A stretch of 64,000 bases of DNA from an uncultured Pelagibacteraceae bacterium (GTDB taxonomy: Bacteria; Pseudomonadota; Alphaproteobacteria; Pelagibacterales; Pelagibacteraceae), in contig CACJEG010000001.1 of the NCBI GenBank assembly GCA_902592375.1, positions 62,001-126,000 of the forward strand, given 5' to 3'. A program made the translations under genes and the position numbers. This document shows, one piece after another, positions 53,465-61,141 of the stretch. Positions within the stretch are counted from its first letter, which is position 1, and every line of letters begins with the position of its first letter. The notes under the pieces were generated by a model. That model saw only the letters and a program-made list of their open reading frames with translations. It was not told the origin of the DNA and did no database searches.

Positions 53465-53854
53465 ATGAATAAAATTATAGTAGAAGTATCGGTAGGTGAG
53501 CTTTTAGACAAAATTTCAATCTTAGAAATTAAAAAAGAAAAAATTAAAGACCCTGAAAAACTAAAATTCATATCAAATGAACATTCGATTCTTAAAGATC
53601 AATTAGAAAAAAATGTTAAATCTGACGATAAACTAAATAAATTATTCCAAGATTTAAAAGAAATTAATGCCAAGTTGTGGGTTATAGAAGATGACAAAAG
53701 AGATTGTGAAAAAAACAAAGACTTTGGCGATAAATTTATAAAATTATCAAGAGATGTTCATTTTTTAAATGATGACCGGGCAAAAATTAAATTAGAAATG
53801 AATAATCACACTGGTTCAAGCATTAAAGAAATTAAAGAATATACTAGCTACTAA
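53465..53854 (+). CDS. DUF6165-like small protein
   Basis: A 129-residue soluble, largely helical protein starting NKIIVEVSVGELLDKISILE, with a charged helical middle and KLWVIEDDKRDCEKN. It resembles the DUF6165 family often found beside LPS glycosyltransferases in SAR11-type genomes. Function unknown. Its end overlaps the convergent PhyH gene by 11 nt. Confidence 0.62.
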   Translation: MNKIIVEVSVGELLDKISILEIKKEKIKDPEKLKFISNEHSILKDQLEKNVKSDDKLNKLFQDLKEINAKLWVIEDDKRDCEKNKDFGDKFIKLSRDVHFLNDDRAKIKLEMNNHTGSSIKEIKEYTSY

Positions 53855-54632
53855 AAACTTTAGGAAACCAATCATCTCTCATCAAATCTCCCGTTTTTAA
53901 ATCAATTCCATCAAATGGAGGTGACGTTGGCCCTCCTCTATCAATATATTTTACATCATCGCCAATAAATCGCATCGAAAATGCTCTACGTGATTTAGAA
54001 GAATTGTTTCCTGTTGAACCATGTACAGTTTTAAAATTAAACAAAACAGCATCCCCTAAACTTAGTTCTGGAATTAAAATATTTTTTTCAAATTCTTTTG
54101 ATGGTGGTAAATCCATAAAAGTACTATCATCATCATACCATGATTGGTTATTGGACCATTTTGTTGGTTTAATTAATTTTGACCATTTGTGAGAACCTAA
54201 AATTAATTTAAGATTATTTTTTTGATCAACTTCATCCAATGGAATCCAAAAACTTCCAGTATCATTGCCATCAACACAGTAATAAGGCATATCTTGATGC
54301 CAAGGTGTCTCTTTATAAGTACCCGGATCCTTAATAAAAATGTGTTCATGAAAAATTTGAGTAGATTTAGAGTTGGTTGCTTCAGCCAATATTTGAGCTC
54401 CAGGTGAATTATACAAACAATCTTTAAATTCTTCTATCCTTTCCCAGTTGCAATAATCCTCAAAAAATCTTCCATTATCATCAGTTACATTTTCTCTTCC
54501 GTGTTTACTTGGACTATTTAAAACTTTTTGAAATCCTTTTCTAAGTGGCTCAATCCAATCTTTAAATACATCCTTAATTATGATTACACCATCATTTTGA
54601 TAATCATTAATTTGTTTATCTGATAAAAACAT
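53844..54632 (-). CDS. PhyH-type Fe(II)/2-oxoglutarate dioxygenase
   Basis: A 262-residue phytanoyl-CoA dioxygenase-like protein. The iron ligands are H112 and D114 (WHQD, 111-114) and H204 (TVHGST), and the 2-oxoglutarate Arg lies in KSRRAFS (~216). It starts 2 nt after the stop of the ABC permease, so it probably acts on the transporter's substrate, for example hydroxylating an amino acid or related compound. Substrate unknown. Confidence 0.85.
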   Translation of the reverse strand: MFLSDKQINDYQNDGVIIIKDVFKDWIEPLRKGFQKVLNSPSKHGRENVTDDNGRFFEDYCNWERIEEFKDCLYNSPGAQILAEATNSKSTQIFHEHIFIKDPGTYKETPWHQDMPYYCVDGNDTGSFWIPLDEVDQKNNLKLILGSHKWSKLIKPTKWSNNQSWYDDDSTFMDLPPSKEFEKNILIPELSLGDAVLFNFKTVHGSTGNNSSKSRRAFSMRFIGDDVKYIDRGGPTSPPFDGIDLKTGDLMRDDWFPKVFSS

Positions 54633-54634
54633 TT

Positions 54635-55312
54635 TTATTGTTGAAAGCTGTACTTTTTCTCTAAATATTTAATCACATTGTGAATGATAAAAGTCATGAA
54701 CAAATAAATTCCACCAGCAACAATAAATACTTCGATTGGTTTAAAAGTTGTTGAAATTATATATTTAGCGACACCAGTTAAATCCATCAAAGTTACTGTA
54801 CTTGCTAAAGAAGTCCCTTTCATCATTAGTATTATTTCATTTCCGTATGCTGGTAATGATTGTCGGATGGCGATTGGAATTTGAATTTTATAAAAAATTA
54901 TTTTGTTTGATATCCCTAAACTTTTTCCAGCTTCAATAATGCCTAGTTTTATTGTTTGAAATGCTGATCTTAAAATTTCAGAGGTATATGCTCCAGTATT
55001 TAAAGTAAATGCTATTATTGCACACCAATAAGGTTCTTTTAAAATAACCCAAAGGAAAGTTGTTCTTAAATATTCGATTTGTCCTAACCCAAAATAAATT
55101 ATGAAAATCTGGACCAATAATGGTGTTCCTCTAAATATATATGAATAGCCATAAGCAAATTTATTGATAAACATATTTTTATTTAATCTTAAAATTGCAA
55201 AGAAAAGACCTAGGAATAATCCAAAAAATAATGATGCAGATAATAATTTTAAAGTAACTACAGTTGCTCCTAAAAGCTTAGGGAAACTAGTAATCATTAA
55301 ATCAAAATCCAT
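54635..55312 (-). CDS. Amino-acid ABC transporter permease (HisM/GlnP-like)
   Basis: A 225-residue permease with about five spans. The EAA loop EAGKSLGISNKIIFYKIQIP contacts the ATPase. It starts at 55312, overlapping the previous permease by 1 nt. No ATP-binding protein gene follows; the PhyH gene does. The partner ATPase must be elsewhere. Confidence 0.9.
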   Translation of the reverse strand: MDFDLMITSFPKLLGATVVTLKLLSASLFFGLFLGLFFAILRLNKNMFINKFAYGYSYIFRGTPLLVQIFIIYFGLGQIEYLRTTFLWVILKEPYWCAIIAFTLNTGAYTSEILRSAFQTIKLGIIEAGKSLGISNKIIFYKIQIPIAIRQSLPAYGNEIILMMKGTSLASTVTLMDLTGVAKYIISTTFKPIEVFIVAGGIYLFMTFIIHNVIKYLEKKYSFQQ

Positions 55313-56004
55313 TAATACCCCCTACTATATCTTACTTCTAACTTGTTAATTAACTTCATGCTCACGTAAGTAAGTAAAAGATATAAAACTGCCGCAAAAG
55401 AATAAAAAAACAGCGGATCTCGAGTTGAGCCAGCTGCAATATAAGACTGTCTCATTATTTCTACTAATCCTGTTACTGAAATTAGAGATGTGTCTTTTAA
55501 TGTTATTTGCCAAACATTACTTAAATTTGGGATAGCTAACCTTAGCATTTGAGGTAAAATTATTTTATAAAACTGCCCAAACTTATTTATTCCAAGAACC
55601 TTTGCTGCTTCAAACTGGCCTTTGTCTATTGATTGAATTGCTCCCCGAAATACTTCAGTTGAATAAGCACCAGAAATAATACCAATAGCCATTGAACCAG
55701 TAATAAATGCGTTAATCTCTATGTATTCATAATAACCAAAAATTGAAGCTACATACATAATTGCACCGCTTCCCCCAAAGAAGAAAAGGTATATTACTAA
55801 TAGTTCAGGCACACCACGGATTACTGTTGTATAAAAATTACCAACTAAATTTAAAGTTTTATATTTTGAGAGTTTTAAAGGAGTAAAAATTAAAGCAAAA
55901 AGAAAACCAACAAGCATTGCCGTAACAGATACAGCTACAGTCATTAAGGTTGCGTAAAATAACTCGTCACCCCAACCTGTTTTACCAAATGCGAGAAGTT
56001 CCAT
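55312..56004 (-). CDS. Amino-acid ABC transporter permease (HisQ-like)
   Basis: A 230-residue permease with about five spans and the loop EAAKVLGINKFGQFYKIILP. It pairs with the downstream permease as a heterodimer. A strong 11-bp hairpin lies between the binding-protein gene and this one. Confidence 0.9.
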   Translation of the reverse strand: MELLAFGKTGWGDELFYATLMTVAVSVTAMLVGFLFALIFTPLKLSKYKTLNLVGNFYTTVIRGVPELLVIYLFFFGGSGAIMYVASIFGYYEYIEINAFITGSMAIGIISGAYSTEVFRGAIQSIDKGQFEAAKVLGINKFGQFYKIILPQMLRLAIPNLSNVWQITLKDTSLISVTGLVEIMRQSYIAAGSTRDPLFFYSFAAVLYLLLTYVSMKLINKLEVRYSRGY

Positions 56005-56010
56005 ATAGAT

Positions 56011-56035
56011 TGGCGACTATATATTATAGTCGCCA
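56011..56035 (-). promoter_or_regulatory. Perfect hairpin between binding-protein and permease genes
   Basis: TGGCGACTATA (56011-56021) and TATAGTCGCCA (56025-56035) form a perfect 11-bp stem with a 3-nt loop. No T-run follows on the minus strand. It lies 13 nt downstream of the binding-protein stop and 6 nt before the permease start, a typical place for a stabilising element that keeps binding-protein mRNA abundant. Confidence 0.65.
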
Positions 56036-56048
56036 GATCTGAAATTAA

Positions 56049-56900
56049 TTACATAGAAGCGTCGAAACCAAAGTGCTTAATAGCAAGTTTGCTAATAATT
56101 CCTTGTTTTCTAGCTTTGTTAATTGCTTTATTGAAGTCTTTTAAGATTTTGGCATCTCTTTTTCCAATCGCACTATCGTTAGCTTGTCTGATACCAACAC
56201 CTACACCATTACCAAATGCACCACCTGAAAAAGTTGGTCCAACTAATACAACTGGTTTACCTGATTTGTCTGCATAATCTGTAAATGCAACAGCTGCAGC
56301 TAAAGCAACATCACATCTTCCAGAGGTTAGATCTAGGTTAACTTCATCTTGAGTTTTATAAGTTCTAACATTTACACTTCCTACATCACCAGACTCTAAA
56401 AAGTTTTGGTGAATTGTTCCTGTTTGAGTACAAACCGTTTTACCAGCAAGTGCTCCTGTTAATGTTTTAAGAGCTTTTTTAACATCAGATCCACCCAATG
56501 ATAAATTAATTCCTTCTGGTGTATCCATACCCTCTAAACTTGAGCCTTTCATTACTGCTAGAGAAGCTACTTCGTCAGCATAACCTTGTGAAAAAGTAAT
56601 TGTTTTTTGTCTTTCAGCAGTAATAGACATTCCAGCCATAATCGCATCAAATTTTCTCATTACTAAAGCAGGAATCATTCCATCCCAATCTTGTTCAACA
56701 ATCGTACACTCATACTTCATAATTGTACAAAGTTCTTGAGCAAGCTCGACCTCAAAACCAATAAGATTACCTGATGCATCTTTTGAATTCCATGGAGGGT
56801 AAGCGCCTTCAGTTCCAATTTTTATTTTTTCAGCAGAAACATTTCCGATGATAAATAAAGAAGCAAGAACTGTTAAAATAGTTTTTTTGAATATATTCAT
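56049..56900 (-). CDS. Amino-acid ABC transporter binding protein (HisJ/ArgT-like)
   Basis: Periplasmic binding protein with a signal peptide at residues 1-23 (cleavage after NVSA near residue 23), then the SBP_bac_3 core with GAYPPWNSKDASGNLIGFEVELA and KYECTIVEQDWDGMIPAL. It resembles Lys/Arg/Orn/His or opine binders. Two permease genes follow; no ATPase gene. It lies beside the spermidine gene on the same strand with a 59-nt gap. Confidence 0.9.
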   Translation of the reverse strand: MNIFKKTILTVLASLFIIGNVSAEKIKIGTEGAYPPWNSKDASGNLIGFEVELAQELCTIMKYECTIVEQDWDGMIPALVMRKFDAIMAGMSITAERQKTITFSQGYADEVASLAVMKGSSLEGMDTPEGINLSLGGSDVKKALKTLTGALAGKTVCTQTGTIHQNFLESGDVGSVNVRTYKTQDEVNLDLTSGRCDVALAAAVAFTDYADKSGKPVVLVGPTFSGGAFGNGVGVGIRQANDSAIGKRDAKILKDFNKAINKARKQGIISKLAIKHFGFDASM

Positions 56901-56959: not shown

Positions 56960-58000
56960 TTAATGATTAATTGATGAAGAAAAATTCCAAGAGCAATCAA
57001 AACTAGGTATGTAAACTCTTGATAATTTTGCATTCCCAAAATTTTGGTTGAAGACATTTAACCAATTTTCAACCTGATGTGGTTTTTTGTCCTGACTACC
57101 TACTTGAGCAGTGATAACTCCTTTAGGTTTTAATATTCTGACTAATGAATCCATATTTTTTGCAGCTAAGTCTATACAAAATTGATCGTCATTTAGATCA
57201 ACAAAAATATGATCGTAAGTATCATCACTTACTGATTTAATACTTTCAAAAGCATCGCCCCAAACACATTTAACTGAATTTTTTTCTGTTGCTTTCTTGC
57301 CAATATCTCCAAGGTGTTTATTACAAACATCTACTACTTCGGGATCTAGTTCATACCAATCTATAAAGTTAAAATTTTTTGAAATACATTCTCTTGCAAC
57401 TCCGCCATCTCCGCCACCAATAATTGCTGCTCGTTCATTGTCTTTATTTAAATTTAAACCAGACCCTACAAAAGTTGAACTGTATAAATGCTCATCAGTT
57501 GAAGCCACCTGTATTTCACCATCAATAAACAAAGATTTACCAAATTGTTCTAAATCTAAAATTTCAATGTGTTGACCTACTTTAGATTTAAAATCTTCTA
57601 AAACATCATTTACTACATACGATTTTTGTAAGCCTGGCGAACTGTAAATGTCATGATAAAGAGATTTTGTATCTCTATTAAATTCTTTTTTAACTATTCT
57701 TTTGTGTTCAAATTCTTTCTTTATAATATCTATCGCCACTGAGGGGTTTACTTTTCCACATGTAAAGAAATCAAAACTTATAATTCCTTTTTCTGGAAAT
57801 GTATGAAAACTAATGTGACTTTCTGCTAATAAAGCAAGAATTGTAAAACCCTGAGGTTCAAATTTATATTTAGATATATTGAGAATTGTTACTTTTGCAG
57901 CTTTTGCAATATCATTAATTACTTTTTCAAATACAGAAGGATCATATTCTTTTGTTGTACCAATAATGTCTAGAGTTATGTGTTCTCCAACTTTAGTCAT
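56960..58000 (-). CDS. Fused S-adenosylmethionine decarboxylase / spermidine synthase
   Basis: A 346-residue fusion. Residues 1-~125 are a SpeD/SpeH-type domain; the processing site is ESHIS with Ser61, H66 and C81 (FTCG) as in pyruvoyl AdoMetDC, and T53 replaces the usual Ser. Residues ~126-346 form a SpeE-like domain with GGGDGG (195-200), GDA (248-250) and VDLNDD (267-272, D268). The usual DPxGPA and YHE motifs are altered. MTA from this reaction would feed the adjacent mtn genes. It overlaps nothing; 3 nt follow the aldolase gene. Confidence 0.88.
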   Translation of the reverse strand: MTKVGEHITLDIIGTTKEYDPSVFEKVINDIAKAAKVTILNISKYKFEPQGFTILALLAESHISFHTFPEKGIISFDFFTCGKVNPSVAIDIIKKEFEHKRIVKKEFNRDTKSLYHDIYSSPGLQKSYVVNDVLEDFKSKVGQHIEILDLEQFGKSLFIDGEIQVASTDEHLYSSTFVGSGLNLNKDNERAAIIGGGDGGVARECISKNFNFIDWYELDPEVVDVCNKHLGDIGKKATEKNSVKCVWGDAFESIKSVSDDTYDHIFVDLNDDQFCIDLAAKNMDSLVRILKPKGVITAQVGSQDKKPHQVENWLNVFNQNFGNAKLSRVYIPSFDCSWNFSSSINH

Positions 58001-58003
58001 TAG

Positions 58004-58636
58004 CTATCCTCTTTTATAATTCTTTGCTTTGGATAAAACTTTTTTCATTTCATTAATTGAAAGAATCTTTGGCTTACCCAATTTAAGGCTCGTTATATAC
58101 TGAAGCGATATATTTTCAACCTCTTCAGCAAGTTCAAATGCTTTTGATAAACTTTCTTCAAATGCAATCTGTCCGTGATTTGAAATTAAACAAGCTTTTC
58201 GACCCTTTAAAGCTTTCAAAATATTTTTTGACAATTCTCTTGTTCCAAATGTTGCGTATTTTGCACATTTGATATCATGACCTCCAGCCATTGCTACCAT
58301 ATAATGAAAAGAAGGTATTCCTCTCTTGTGAGTAGAAACTGCTGTAGCACATGTTGAGTGTGCATGAACAATTGCTTTTGCTTCTTTTTTATTTCTGTAG
58401 ATATCTTGATGAAACTTCCACTCAGATGAAGGAATTCCTTTTTTTTTATCAAAGTACCCATCTAGGGAAACAAAAACTATATCATTGTTCTTTAATGATA
58501 AGTATTTTTTTCCTGAAGGAGTAATTAAAAAACCATCTTTGTACCTTGATGAGATATTGCCAGATCTTAATGCTGATAAATTTTTTGAATTCAGCATTTT
58601 TGAATATTTTATTATTTCAGATCTTAAATTTTTCAT
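58004..58636 (-). CDS. Class II aldolase, FucA-like (probable methylthioribulose-1-phosphate aldolase)
   Basis: A 210-residue zinc aldolase. It has E72 in PSSEWKF, H91 and H93 in VHAHSTC, and H154 in SNHGQIA; the spacing matches E. coli FucA (E73, H92, H94, H155), as do HYMVAMAGG and YATFGTRELS. It lacks the Glu of MtnB-type dehydratases at the matching place. With mtnA and mtnP it would cleave methylthioribulose-1-phosphate to DHAP and methylthioacetaldehyde. It overlaps mtnA by ATGA. MtnB or fuculose-phosphate aldolase are alternatives. Confidence 0.8.
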   Translation of the reverse strand: MKNLRSEIIKYSKMLNSKNLSALRSGNISSRYKDGFLITPSGKKYLSLKNNDIVFVSLDGYFDKKKGIPSSEWKFHQDIYRNKKEAKAIVHAHSTCATAVSTHKRGIPSFHYMVAMAGGHDIKCAKYATFGTRELSKNILKALKGRKACLISNHGQIAFEESLSKAFELAEEVENISLQYITSLKLGKPKILSINEMKKVLSKAKNYKRG

Positions 58637-59703
58637 TTAAATAATCTTTTTAAACCATCAAAAGAAGCTTCGGCAATCCCTCTTTCAGTAATTAATCCTG
58701 TCACATATTTTGCAGGTGTTACATCAAAAGCTAAATTCATAGCTTTACTATTAGTTGGGTATATCAAAACTTTCTTAATTTCATTGTTCTCATCTATACC
58801 TTCAACATGAGATAATTCCTCTGAATTTCTTTCTTCAATGGGAATATCTTTTGCATCTTTGATGTCCCAATCAATTGTTGAACTTGGAAGGGCTACATAA
58901 AAAGGAACATTATTGTCATGGGCAGCCAATGCTTTAAGATAAGTTCCAATTTTATTACAAACGTCTCCATTGGATAAAGTTCTATCAGTACCTACAATAC
59001 ACATGTCAACTTCACCTCTCTGCATTAAAATACCTCCTGTATTATCAGCGATAATAGTATTGGGGATTTCCTCTTCGTTTAATTCGTATGAAGTTAAGTT
59101 TGCGCCTTGATTTCTTGGCCTTGTTTCATCTACCCATACATGAACTGGTATTCCTTTTTTATGAGCATGGTAAATTGGCGATGTTGCTGTACCCCAATTA
59201 ATAGTTGCTAACCAACCAGCATTACAATGTGTTAATATGTTTATTGTCTCTTTCTTTTTATTATAAATTTCTTCAATTATTTTTAATCCATTAATACCAA
59301 TATTTTCACAAAATTTTTCATCTTCATCACATATTTCTTTTGCCTCATTTAAAGCTATACTTAATATTTGATCACTGTTAATTCCTGATAATTTTTTTAT
59401 CATTCGGTCTACAGCCCACTTTAAATTAATAGCAGTAGGTCTTGATTGAATTAATTCTTTTGCACTTTTTTTTATAAATTCTGGATCATTATTTTCTTGA
59501 ACTGCCAAAGCTAGACCATAAGCAGCTGTTGCTCCGATTAGAGGTGCGCCTCTTACCTCCATTATTTTAATTGCATTAATTGAATCTTTTACTGTCTTTA
59601 GTTCTTTGATTTTAAATTGGTGAGGAAGTTTTGTTTGATCAATAATCTTAACAACATTATTTTCAAACCAAATAGTTCGATACTCTTTTCCTTCTATTCT
59701 CAT
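58633..59703 (-). CDS. mtnA: Methylthioribose-1-phosphate isomerase
   Basis: Isomerises MTR-1-phosphate to methylthioribulose-1-phosphate. The 356-residue eIF2B-fold protein has RGAPLIG (51-57), the catalytic Cys160 in THCNAG and Asp240 in VGTDR. Both catalytic positions match the characterised enzyme of this family. It overlaps mtnP by 4 nt and the aldolase by 4 nt, so the set is translationally coupled. Confidence 0.96.
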   Translation of the reverse strand: MRIEGKEYRTIWFENNVVKIIDQTKLPHQFKIKELKTVKDSINAIKIMEVRGAPLIGATAAYGLALAVQENNDPEFIKKSAKELIQSRPTAINLKWAVDRMIKKLSGINSDQILSIALNEAKEICDEDEKFCENIGINGLKIIEEIYNKKKETINILTHCNAGWLATINWGTATSPIYHAHKKGIPVHVWVDETRPRNQGANLTSYELNEEEIPNTIIADNTGGILMQRGEVDMCIVGTDRTLSNGDVCNKIGTYLKALAAHDNNVPFYVALPSSTIDWDIKDAKDIPIEERNSEELSHVEGIDENNEIKKVLIYPTNSKAMNLAFDVTPAKYVTGLITERGIAEASFDGLKRLFK

Positions 59704-60572
59704 TTACTTAAAACTCTACCTGCAACAGTTTTTAATTTATTTATAGTCTTTTTTGTTCTTTTTTCTGGAGCAGTAATAATTGCTACATCTAAACAATTAT
59801 TTGTTGGGTCATTTGGGTCAATATGATCTTCAAAATTATCAATTAAATTTTTAATCATAACTTTTGCTTTTTCAGCATTACCTAATAAAACTTTGATTAC
59901 TTGTTGAACGTCAACGTTTTCATGATCTGGATGCCAACAGTCAAAATCAGTTACCATTGAAACAGATGCATATCTAATTTCAGCCTCCCTTGCTAATTTT
60001 GCCTCAGGCATATTTGTCATTCCAATTACATCTGCTTTCCAAGATCTATATAAATTAGACTCTGCTAATGTAGAAAATTGAGGCCCTTCCATAACTACAT
60101 ATGTTCCATTTCTTTGATAATCAATGTTTGATTTTTTAATTGCTTCTTCGCATGCATTCATTAATCCGTTAGAGGTTGGGTGAGCCATTGATACGTGAGC
60201 AACAATCTCGTCATCAAAAAAAGTTTTATTTCTTGCAAAAGTCCTATCTATAAATTGGTCTACAATTACAAATTTTCCAGGAGGTAGATTTTCTTTAAGA
60301 GAACCAACAGCTGATACGGAAACAATATCTGTTACACCTAATTGTTTAAGTGCATCTATATTTGCTCTAAAATTTATATTTGAGGGAGAAACAAAATGTC
60401 CTCTACCGTGTCTTGGTAAAAAATATACTTCCTTACTATTATATTTAGTTTTTAAAATTTGATCAGAAGATTTTCCCCAGGGTGTTTGTAAATCAAGTAA
60501 TTCTCTATCTTTAAATTCCTCGACATCATAAAGACCACTACCACCAATTATTGCTAATTTATTTGTTGTCAT
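59700..60572 (-). CDS. mtnP: 5'-methylthioadenosine phosphorylase
   Basis: Cleaves MTA with phosphate to adenine and methylthioribose-1-phosphate. The 290-residue protein has IIGGSGLYD at the start, the PRHGRGH segment, and MTNMPEAKLAREAEI, and the TDFDCWHPDHE substrate region. It leads the salvage operon. It starts 41 nt from the divergent apt, whose substrate adenine it produces. Confidence 0.94.
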   Translation of the reverse strand: MTTNKLAIIGGSGLYDVEEFKDRELLDLQTPWGKSSDQILKTKYNSKEVYFLPRHGRGHFVSPSNINFRANIDALKQLGVTDIVSVSAVGSLKENLPPGKFVIVDQFIDRTFARNKTFFDDEIVAHVSMAHPTSNGLMNACEEAIKKSNIDYQRNGTYVVMEGPQFSTLAESNLYRSWKADVIGMTNMPEAKLAREAEIRYASVSMVTDFDCWHPDHENVDVQQVIKVLLGNAEKAKVMIKNLIDNFEDHIDPNDPTNNCLDVAIITAPEKRTKKTINKLKTVAGRVLSK

Positions 60573-60613: not shown

Positions 60614-61141
60614 ATGAATTTAAAAGATTATATTAGATCTATTCCTGATTATCCAAAAAAAGGTATTTTATTTAGAGATATAACTACCTTAATCAAAAAT
60701 GAAAATGCATTTGCAGAGACAATTAACCAAATTATTGAAAGATCAAAAAAGTATAATTTTACAAAAATAGCAGCTATTGAGTCTAGAGGTTTTGTATTTG
60801 CATCAGCTGTTTCGTTTGTTCTTAAAAAACCATTTATTATGCTTAGAAAAAAAAATAAGTTACCTGCGGATGTTCACTCAGTAGATTTTGAGCTTGAATA
60901 TGGAACAGCAACAATAGAAGTGCACAAAGATTCTATAAATGAAGAAGATAAAGTTTTAATAATAGATGATCTTATTGCAACTGGGGGTACGGCTGAAGCA
61001 GCCGCAAAATTAGTCAAAATTTCAAAAGGTAAAGTTGCAGCATTTGTATTTGTAATAAATCTATTTGATTTAGGTGGATCAGATAATTTAGTAAAAGGTA
61101 ATTATAAAGTTGAAAGTTTAATTGATTTTCCTGGGCATTAA
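60614..61141 (+). CDS. apt: Adenine phosphoribosyltransferase
   Basis: Turns adenine and PRPP into AMP. From the ATG at 60614 the protein has 175 residues, with IRSIPDYPKKGILFRDIT, ESRGF and the PRPP loop VLIIDDLIATGGTAEAA. An upstream hydrophobic stretch in the same frame (from 60551) is not used. It sits divergent from mtnP, recovering the adenine that mtnP releases. Confidence 0.95.
   Translation: MNLKDYIRSIPDYPKKGILFRDITTLIKNENAFAETINQIIERSKKYNFTKIAAIESRGFVFASAVSFVLKKPFIMLRKKNKLPADVHSVDFELEYGTATIEVHKDSINEEDKVLIIDDLIATGGTAEAAAKLVKISKGKVAAFVFVINLFDLGGSDNLVKGNYKVESLIDFPGH

Follow-up and report, generated by a model that had tools for sequence, protein, structure and literature searches.

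We analysed a 64,000-nucleotide (nt) stretch of DNA (the window; contig CACJEG010000001.1 of assembly GCA_902592375.1) from a member of the Pelagibacteraceae (SAR11), in which mtnP, mtnA, a FucA-like class II aldolase gene and speDE follow one another on the minus strand. We propose, with a probability of about 0.8, that these genes form a polyamine by-product module in which the 5'-methylthioadenosine (MTA) made by SpeDE would be disposed of by MtnP, MtnA and the class II aldolase through a dihydroxyacetone phosphate (DHAP) shunt. The observations are gene families, gene order, conservation, catalytic residues, phylogenetic place and the lack of MtnB-, MtnC- or MtnD-grade proteins; from them we infer the aldolase's substrate and products, co-transcription and the fate of the aldehyde.

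In the proposed pathway, SpeDE would decarboxylate S-adenosylmethionine (SAM), transfer the aminopropyl group and release MTA. MtnP would split MTA with phosphate into adenine and methylthioribose-1-phosphate, and Apt would turn the adenine into AMP. MtnA would then isomerise the sugar phosphate to methylthioribulose-1-phosphate (MTRu-1-P), which the aldolase would cleave into DHAP, bound for central metabolism, and 2-methylthioacetaldehyde. The same three enzymes probably also handle 5'-deoxyadenosine, yielding acetaldehyde. The aldehyde would most likely be reduced or oxidised and then lost, not returned to methionine. Elsewhere in SAR11 the aldolase step is probably carried out, from the same slot between apt and speDE, by a fusion of a class II aldolase with a short-chain dehydrogenase; alternatively, the sugar part would be given up and only a nucleosidase-like protein kept.

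The MTA locus

The genes are as follows (profile scores in bits, with cut-offs after the oblique).

59700..60572, minus strand: mtnP, S-methyl-5'-thioadenosine phosphorylase, 290 aa (NF006492 444.8/437; TIGR01694 307.6/274.85)
58633..59703, minus strand: mtnA, methylthioribose-1-phosphate isomerase, 356 aa (TIGR00512 425.1/279)
58004..58636, minus strand: FucA-like class II aldolase, 210 aa, proposed MTRu-1-P (and 5-deoxyribulose-1-phosphate) aldolase, Ald2-like (PF00596 160.7/22.2)
56960..58000, minus strand: speDE, S-adenosylmethionine decarboxylase-aminopropyltransferase fusion, 346 aa, the predicted MTA maker (TIGR03330 98.3/75.65; PF01564 88.2/22.9)
60614..61141, plus strand: apt, adenine phosphoribosyltransferase (TIGR01090 198.5/185.85)

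The original prediction had described this minus-strand order with two 4-nt overlaps and a 3-nt gap, and the coordinates of the open reading frames (ORFs) confirm it: mtnP and mtnA overlap at 59700-59703, mtnA and the aldolase gene at 58633-58636, and 58001-58003 separate the aldolase gene from speDE. apt, a gene absent from the original prediction, is divergent from mtnP, 41 nt away, with an ATG start picked by hand (the mechanical ORF starts at 60551). The SpeDE ORF joins an N-terminal SAM decarboxylase to a C-terminal aminopropyltransferase, the speE equivalog TIGR00417 staying under its cut-off (97.4/249.55). Across the whole genome (1,247,213 bases, 23 contigs, 94.66% complete), MtnP is the sole PF01048 match, and no separate MTA/S-adenosylhomocysteine nucleosidase was found. 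Promoter and terminator scans of the locus gave signals no better than shuffled sequence, so the operon structure is argued from spacing and conservation only. At the gathering threshold, Rfam returned nothing but one tRNA between 52000 and 64000.

Identity of the aldolase

The aldolase falls below the cut-offs of the fucA models (TIGR01086 187.8/400.25; PRK08087 208.6/264) and of the mtnB model (TIGR03328, 61.5 bits, cut-off 137.05). Its closest solved structures are those of E. coli FucA (176 bits), and it also matches PDB 6btd, which we take to be DrdA, at 125.4 bits. The FucA ligands, the FucA-like motifs and the lack of an MtnB-like Glu that were first read from the sequence are all borne out by alignment. 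Residues E72, H91, H93 and H154 are identical in all 27 aligned rows, save that AraD has Asp at the first position; the HYMVAMAGG and YATFGTREL stretches are present; and His111 occupies the column in which three alphaproteobacterial MtnB rows carry Glu. Y112 and the C-terminal Y207 are common to the aldolase, FucA and E. coli Ald2.

In a tree of 71 rows (the AraD row was too long to place), MtnB separates at 100/100. A clade supported at 98/94 unites 22 rows labelled SAR11 with six mtn-linked alphaproteobacterial rows and is free of unlinked and sugar-linked rows; one more mtn-linked row, the seventh, attaches to it at 93/84. One of the 22 is an unclassified alphaproteobacterial metagenome-assembled genome (MAG; L080), and two of the six mtn-linked rows (L121, L122) fall among the SAR11 rows, so that SAR11 is not one clade here. 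Outside lie three sugar-linked plasmid rows, E. coli FucA, E. coli Ald2 and all ten unlinked rows. The aldolase is thus placed among mtn-linked alphaproteobacterial aldolases, apart from both MtnB and E. coli FucA. Beyond the family, 38 small-aldolase contexts were fetched of 79 genomes (82 matches minus G000, G207 and G098), and mtnA or mtnP lies within 3 kb in 28 of the 38.

The methionine cycle and the fate of sulfur

Searches of the genome, which is about 5% incomplete, gave no match to ARD (MtnD) or MtnC and no TIGR03328 (MtnB) match above cut-off; these negatives cover MtnB, MtnC and MtnD, whereas MtnE, MtnW, MtnX, MtnK, RuBisCO-like and isoprenoid-shunt genes were not searched for. With mtnE likewise set aside, the lack of methionine-cycle genes first noticed within the window therefore extends to the whole genome for MtnC, MtnD and any MtnB-grade protein. 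PF00596 is found in three proteins of this genome, the other two being nearest PRK07044 (260/207 and 180.6/207). We also used a sample of 60 Pelagibacteraceae genomes and one of 289 genomes of the class, both drawn by a tool and both containing related genomes that are not independent. ARD is above cut-off in 0/60 Pelagibacteraceae, with two sub-cut-off matches of 21-22 bits. We treated the lack of an MtnB-MtnC-MtnD route as a working criterion and not a strict one, since B. thuringiensis has both routes.

The genome's top-scoring PF01053 protein comes closest to cystathionine beta-lyase (357.6/365.9), and sulfhydrylase models score far below their cut-offs. The second PF01053 match above cut-off (L086, 39.7 bits) is presumably a cysteine desulfurase. 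SAR11 need a source of reduced sulfur (PMC8437039). The shunt of R. palustris runs by unknown enzymes to methanethiol, from which O-acetylhomoserine sulfhydrylase presumably makes methionine (PMC5893883); the end product carrying the methylthio group in E. coli is 2-methylthioethanol (PMC10986504). The original prediction of an MTA-salvage operon keeps its core, an MTA maker beside an MTA breaker, but its words 'salvage' and 'recycles' go beyond the evidence, given the cystathionine beta-lyase-like protein and the E. coli end product. We lean, giving this low weight, towards the methylthio group being discarded rather than salvaged.

Conservation of the neighbourhood

We compared 80 of 153 confirmed relatives of the aldolase, the subset retained by a scan with peptides of the window's own protein. 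All but two are labelled as Pelagibacteraceae, Pelagibacterales or Candidatus Pelagibacter (78/80; L053 and L080 are unclassified proteobacterial MAGs), and the closest of the 80 is 99% identical. In 75/75 loci whose sequence runs on for 300 nt or more past the aldolase, SpeDE comes next on the same strand, no further than 45 nt away, and 59/60 testable loci have a divergent apt no more than 120 nt from mtnP; these two are the tightest links of the cluster. Across the 76 loci whose 5' flank extends for 1200 nt or more, mtnA lies within 60 nt of the aldolase in 52, at 61-400 nt in four (one of them an artefact of a split MtnA match in L010) and further away in 19, and is not seen in one. For mtnP and mtnA, 69 loci had room: the distance is at most 60 nt in 39 and greater in 29, and mtnP is unseen in one.

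In 18 loci (L027, L031 and L063 among them), 2.5-4.9 kb of mostly opposite-strand genes, including a PF00291 pyridoxal phosphate (PLP) enzyme, stand between mtnA and aldolase-speDE. The genes in the mtnP-mtnA and mtnA-aldolase gaps were considered as a clue to the fate of the aldehyde and rejected: they differ between genomes and look like passengers. Those scanned were a weak alpha/beta hydrolase, the PF00291 PLP enzyme, SMR, an enoyl-CoA hydratase with a CoA-binding protein, and Ldh_2. A PhyH dioxygenase lies between mtnP and mtnA in L076 and L199, a rare arrangement.

A slot between apt and speDE with changing contents

Among the 60 Pelagibacteraceae, SpeDE is present in 49, MtnA in 43 and the small aldolase in 27. 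The speDE neighbourhoods of 48 genomes and the window, 49 in all, were classified by what the slot contains.

Type A, 26/49: small aldolase in the slot (in G333 in two pieces with a stop)
Type B, 18/49 (L180-L193, L204-L207): aldolase/dehydrogenase fusion of about 676 aa beside speDE, on the opposite strand
Type C, 4/49 (L194, L195, L196 and L222, the last a piece at a contig end): just a short PF01048 nucleosidase-like protein of about 175 aa
Remnant, 1/49 (G334, L197:3935-4066; labelled by hand): 44-residue aldolase piece beside mtnP, with no mtnA

In type B, mtnA, intact or truncated by the end of the contig, stands on the fusion's other side in 17/18; in the remaining genome, G297, the contig starts within the fusion gene and mtnA was not detected. 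The fusion L180 scores 78.6 bits with PF00596, 135 bits with PF13561 and 886.3/639 with NF006192. The type C protein has nucleosidase models as its best NCBIfam matches, all below cut-off, and no mtnA or small aldolase was found genome-wide in type C genomes; the type C call for G318 is based on a fragment of 29 residues where the contig ends. We read the G334 remnant as a module in decay. No slot holds the aldolase and the fusion together, even in unfiltered matches with E up to 1e-5; the slot display itself leaves out aldolase matches below 40% identity and, beside mtnP, nucleosidase matches below 40%. The replacement of the aldolase in the same slot is another aldolase, fused to a dehydrogenase, and not a dehydratase, which argues for the shunt.

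Mapped on the SpeDE tree, the slot types require 6 changes, against a mean of 19.1 after shuffling, and the strongly supported branches impose a minimum of 3 each for types B and C. With the MtnA tree, types A and B require 4 changes, 2 of them forced. The type A genome G310 sits inside a type B clade, and the type C genome G312 inside the window's own genus. Two of our trees, for the fusion family and the slot types, were quick ones with support from the Shimodaira-Hasegawa-like approximate likelihood ratio test (SH-aLRT) only. Judged from these changes, MTA-disposal cassettes appear to have been exchanged repeatedly in the SAR11 slot; recombination of speDE may be an alternative source of the scatter.

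Eleven of the 60 genomes have no SpeDE match, and 10 of these also have neither MtnA nor the small aldolase; the eleventh, G299, carries apt-mtnP-mtnA-aldolase at a contig end. Seven of the eleven (G292, G305, G314, G323, G331, G339 and G345) belong to one genus, g227, all without SpeDE, MtnA and small aldolase at the thresholds used, so the independent co-loss events are few; G328, G340 and G341 are only 76-93% complete. The converse link is loose, as type C and remnant genomes retain SpeDE without the shunt.

The aldolase/dehydrogenase fusion beyond SAR11

Of the 289 class genomes, 57 carry the fusion (E no higher than 1e-80) and 82 the small aldolase (E no higher than 1e-20); 6 carry both, where 16 are expected (one-sided Fisher test, 3.6e-4, kinship ignored). 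We fetched 20 of the 57 fusion contexts (17 best matches and 3 lower ones). In 12 of these, mtnA or mtnP precedes the fusion on the same strand by no more than 3 kb, in 11 cases by 130 nt or less, and several also have apt; the plasmid pTM3 of Tistrella mobilis has the order mtnP-mtnA-fusion. Of the 12 mtn-linked fusion genomes, G200 alone has a small-aldolase match; conversely, a fusion match is absent from all 28 genomes whose small aldolase is mtn-linked. Outside the slots the fusion was sought in G000, G207 and G098 rather than family-wide, and in those three it is absent. Plasmids of Mariluticola halotolerans (L280) and Shinella sumterensis (L282) carry the fusion with a sugar-binding regulator and a sugar ATP-binding cassette (ABC) transporter, and mtnK-mtnA follow some 4-5 kb on. 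These two plasmid loci resemble an uptake cluster for methylthioribose or 5-deoxyribose.

Invariant among 36 fusion rows are E124, H138, H140 and H199, which we take to be metal ligands, and S561, Y574 and K578, which we take to be dehydrogenase residues. From its domains and contexts, the fusion is probably a second MTRu-1-P aldolase with an aldehyde dehydrogenase built in. We think it rather more probable than its opposite that the NF006192 fusion is an independently recruited second DHAP-shunt enzyme, acting on MTRu-1-P and 5-deoxyribulose-1-phosphate and processing the aldehyde, probably by oxidation, in the same polypeptide, and that SAR11 swap three cassettes in one apt-speDE slot.

A precedent for the domain layout is RhaEW, a rhamnulose-1-phosphate aldolase and NAD-dependent lactaldehyde dehydrogenase that forms DHAP and uses NAD+ to oxidise the aldehyde (PMC3870299). 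By analogy, the products of the SAR11 fusion should be DHAP and methylthioacetate, although it may instead reduce the aldehyde to methylthioethanol. The SAR11 fusion L180 differs in missing the cut-off of the RhaD-ADH model TIGR02632 (456.8/567.75) while passing NF006192, and in being located with mtnA; RhaEW is described as confined to rha loci (PMC3870299).

Comparison with described systems

The DHAP shunt itself is already published (PMC5893883, PMC10986504, PMC12632272, PMC6302742, PMC8102628, PMC6079011). Closest to the window is the MtnP variant of R. rubrum and R. palustris, with the same three enzymes, MtnP, MtnA and Ald2, encoded in R. rubrum in one operon (PMC5893883). The clustering of mtnP, mtnA and a class II aldolase gene that marks this variant is found here too. 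The SAR11 cluster differs in its link to speDE and apt, and an ethylene or methanethiol branch would here be hypothetical. Its host is a streamlined marine heterotroph, whereas holders of the shunt in the published survey are mostly terrestrial (PMC5893883). The original prediction of a DHAP shunt in place of the methionine route is supported by the gene set and by the lack of MtnB-, MtnC- or MtnD-grade proteins, but the mtnP-mtnA-ald2 operon had been described before, in R. rubrum.

E. coli ATCC 25922 likewise uses MtnA and a FucA-like aldolase in its mtnK-mtnA-ald2 shunt, which ends in DHAP and 2-methylthioacetaldehyde (PMC10986504). There, however, a nucleosidase and a kinase stand where SAR11 has MtnP, the aldolase pairs with FucA, and the shunt serves growth on external deoxynucleosides (PMC10986504, PMC12632272). 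The DrdK-DrdI-DrdA trio of B. thuringiensis is similar in combining a kinase or phosphorylase, an isomerase and a FucA-like aldolase; it was proposed for 5-deoxyribose, and the available part of that paper describes no polyamine gene and no aldolase-dehydrogenase fusion (PMC6079011). The SpeD-SpeE fusions of Ca. Pelagibacter HTCC1062 and HTCC7211 have the same domain order as SpeDE here and are a working decarboxylase and spermidine/spermine/thermospermine synthase; MTA genes next to them are not a subject of the available part of that paper (PMC11107197).

Alternative explanations

Several observations weigh against the polyamine by-product module or its extension to the fusion. No NCBIfam model above cut-off names the aldolase. 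The earlier suggestion of comparing it with Ald2 and MtnB by hidden Markov model (HMM) and tree set it apart from MtnB but did not group it with E. coli Ald2: the latter (L159, from strain S88, recognised by its place after mtnK-mtnA), which is the one characterised Ald2 placed by us in the tree, pairs with E. coli FucA at 100/99, so one clade of characterised Ald2 and the SAR11 protein is not supported. The name Ald2-like accordingly refers to its context and residues and marks it as a candidate, not a proven, orthologue of a tested Ald2. About 5% of the genome is missing, no shunt genes were seen in the four type C genomes or in the sampled members of genus g227, and a single transcript is not general, with mtnA and the aldolase more than 400 nt apart in 19/76 loci and mtnP and mtnA more than 60 nt apart in 29/68. 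As for the fusion, 8 of the 20 contexts are not mtn-linked. In L276 it stands with an FGGY kinase, an iron alcohol dehydrogenase and a glycerol-phosphate dehydrogenase, and the R. etli p42a fusion has no mtn gene within 6 kb. A search for mtnK near the eight unlinked fusions gave no match, nor was there one in any of the 20 contexts. In the fusion tree, mtn-linked and unlinked rows are mixed, with the SAR11 rows as their own clade on a long branch. The fusion family is therefore not exclusively an MTA family.

The cassette might serve mainly 5'-deoxyadenosine from radical SAM enzymes, as a DrdA-type disposal of 5-deoxyribose with MTA secondary. This is compatible with the MTA module and favoured by the 6btd match; we consider it possible, if unlikely. 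Characterised DHAP-shunt enzymes accept both substrates (PMC10986504), and B. thuringiensis DrdA cleaves 5-deoxyribulose-1-phosphate (PMC6079011). On the other hand, the constant partner of the aldolase is an MTA maker, and 10 of the 11 genomes without a SpeDE match lack both mtnA and the aldolase. That constant neighbour also makes it improbable that the module scavenges exogenous phytoplankton MTA for purine and carbon, a role that the constancy of apt beside mtnP and the release of MTA by Prochlorococcus under phosphate limitation (PMC11698098) would suit. Moreover, the neighbouring transporter is of amino-acid type and missing in 4/72 testable loci, and no nucleoside transporter was recognised among the annotated neighbours.

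A sugar-phosphate aldolase placed here by chance, working on L-fuculose-1-phosphate or another ordinary substrate, would fit the FucA structures and the similar small aldolases on Ruegeria, Thalassospira and Chelatococcus plasmids, which adjoin FGGY kinase and sugar ABC genes (a plasmid search with the small aldolase, in which four contexts were opened, gave three sugar-linked and one unannotated). We regard this as very improbable: the sugar-linked rows lie outside the SAR11 clade, no kinase stands beside the aldolase, the fucA cut-off is far missed and the SpeDE neighbour is kept in 75/75. The slightest probability goes to the aldolase being MTRu-1-P dehydratase (MtnB) in a methionine-regenerating pathway. 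It belongs to the same superfamily and does match TIGR03328, but far under the cut-off, and HMM score, the residue at the Glu position, the 100/100 split in the tree and the lack of MtnC and MtnD in the genome led us to reject it.

Significance

What is new is the swapping of the slot and the fused replacement of the aldolase; the mtnP-mtnA-aldolase cluster is itself of known type, and both the SpeDE fusion and what it catalyses were known from earlier papers (PMC11107197, PMC8437039). In the available parts of the open-licence PMC literature we found no text on a DHAP shunt in SAR11 or on an mtn-linked aldolase/dehydrogenase fusion. SAR11 mtnA may already be named in material of PMC8437039 outside its main text, where 'methylthioribose' and 'mtnA' occur once each.

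Genes predicted to cut MTA into DHAP and a methylthio-aldehyde are present in 26/49 sampled SpeDE-bearing Pelagibacteraceae, or in 44/49 if the fusion does the same reaction. In that case a widespread family, named by NCBI after its domains only, would gain a function, and the fusion would account for the step assigned in the literature to a 'putative alcohol dehydrogenase' (PMC5893883). If the module works as proposed, polyamine synthesis in SAR11 would be a standing source of small methylthio compounds despite the need for reduced sulfur. SAR11 SpeE has been proposed to run backwards (PMC8437039); MTA destruction beside SpeDE would pull the SpeE reaction forwards and so bears on that proposal. 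Three cassettes in one slot would be a natural experiment on the handling of polyamine by-products in streamlined ocean cells.

Neighbouring genes

One further gene lies 59 nt past speDE on the same strand, with a putative link to the MTA module.

56049..56900, minus strand: family 3 periplasmic amino-acid-type binding protein (PF00497 110.8 bits; TIGR01096 222.8 bits, below its cut-off of 256.35)

It is present in 68/72 testable loci. The region 53844-56900, after speDE on the same strand, holds amino-acid-type ABC transporter genes and a PhyH-type dioxygenase. In some deeper relatives, a carbon-nitrogen hydrolase follows speDE instead of the transporter genes.

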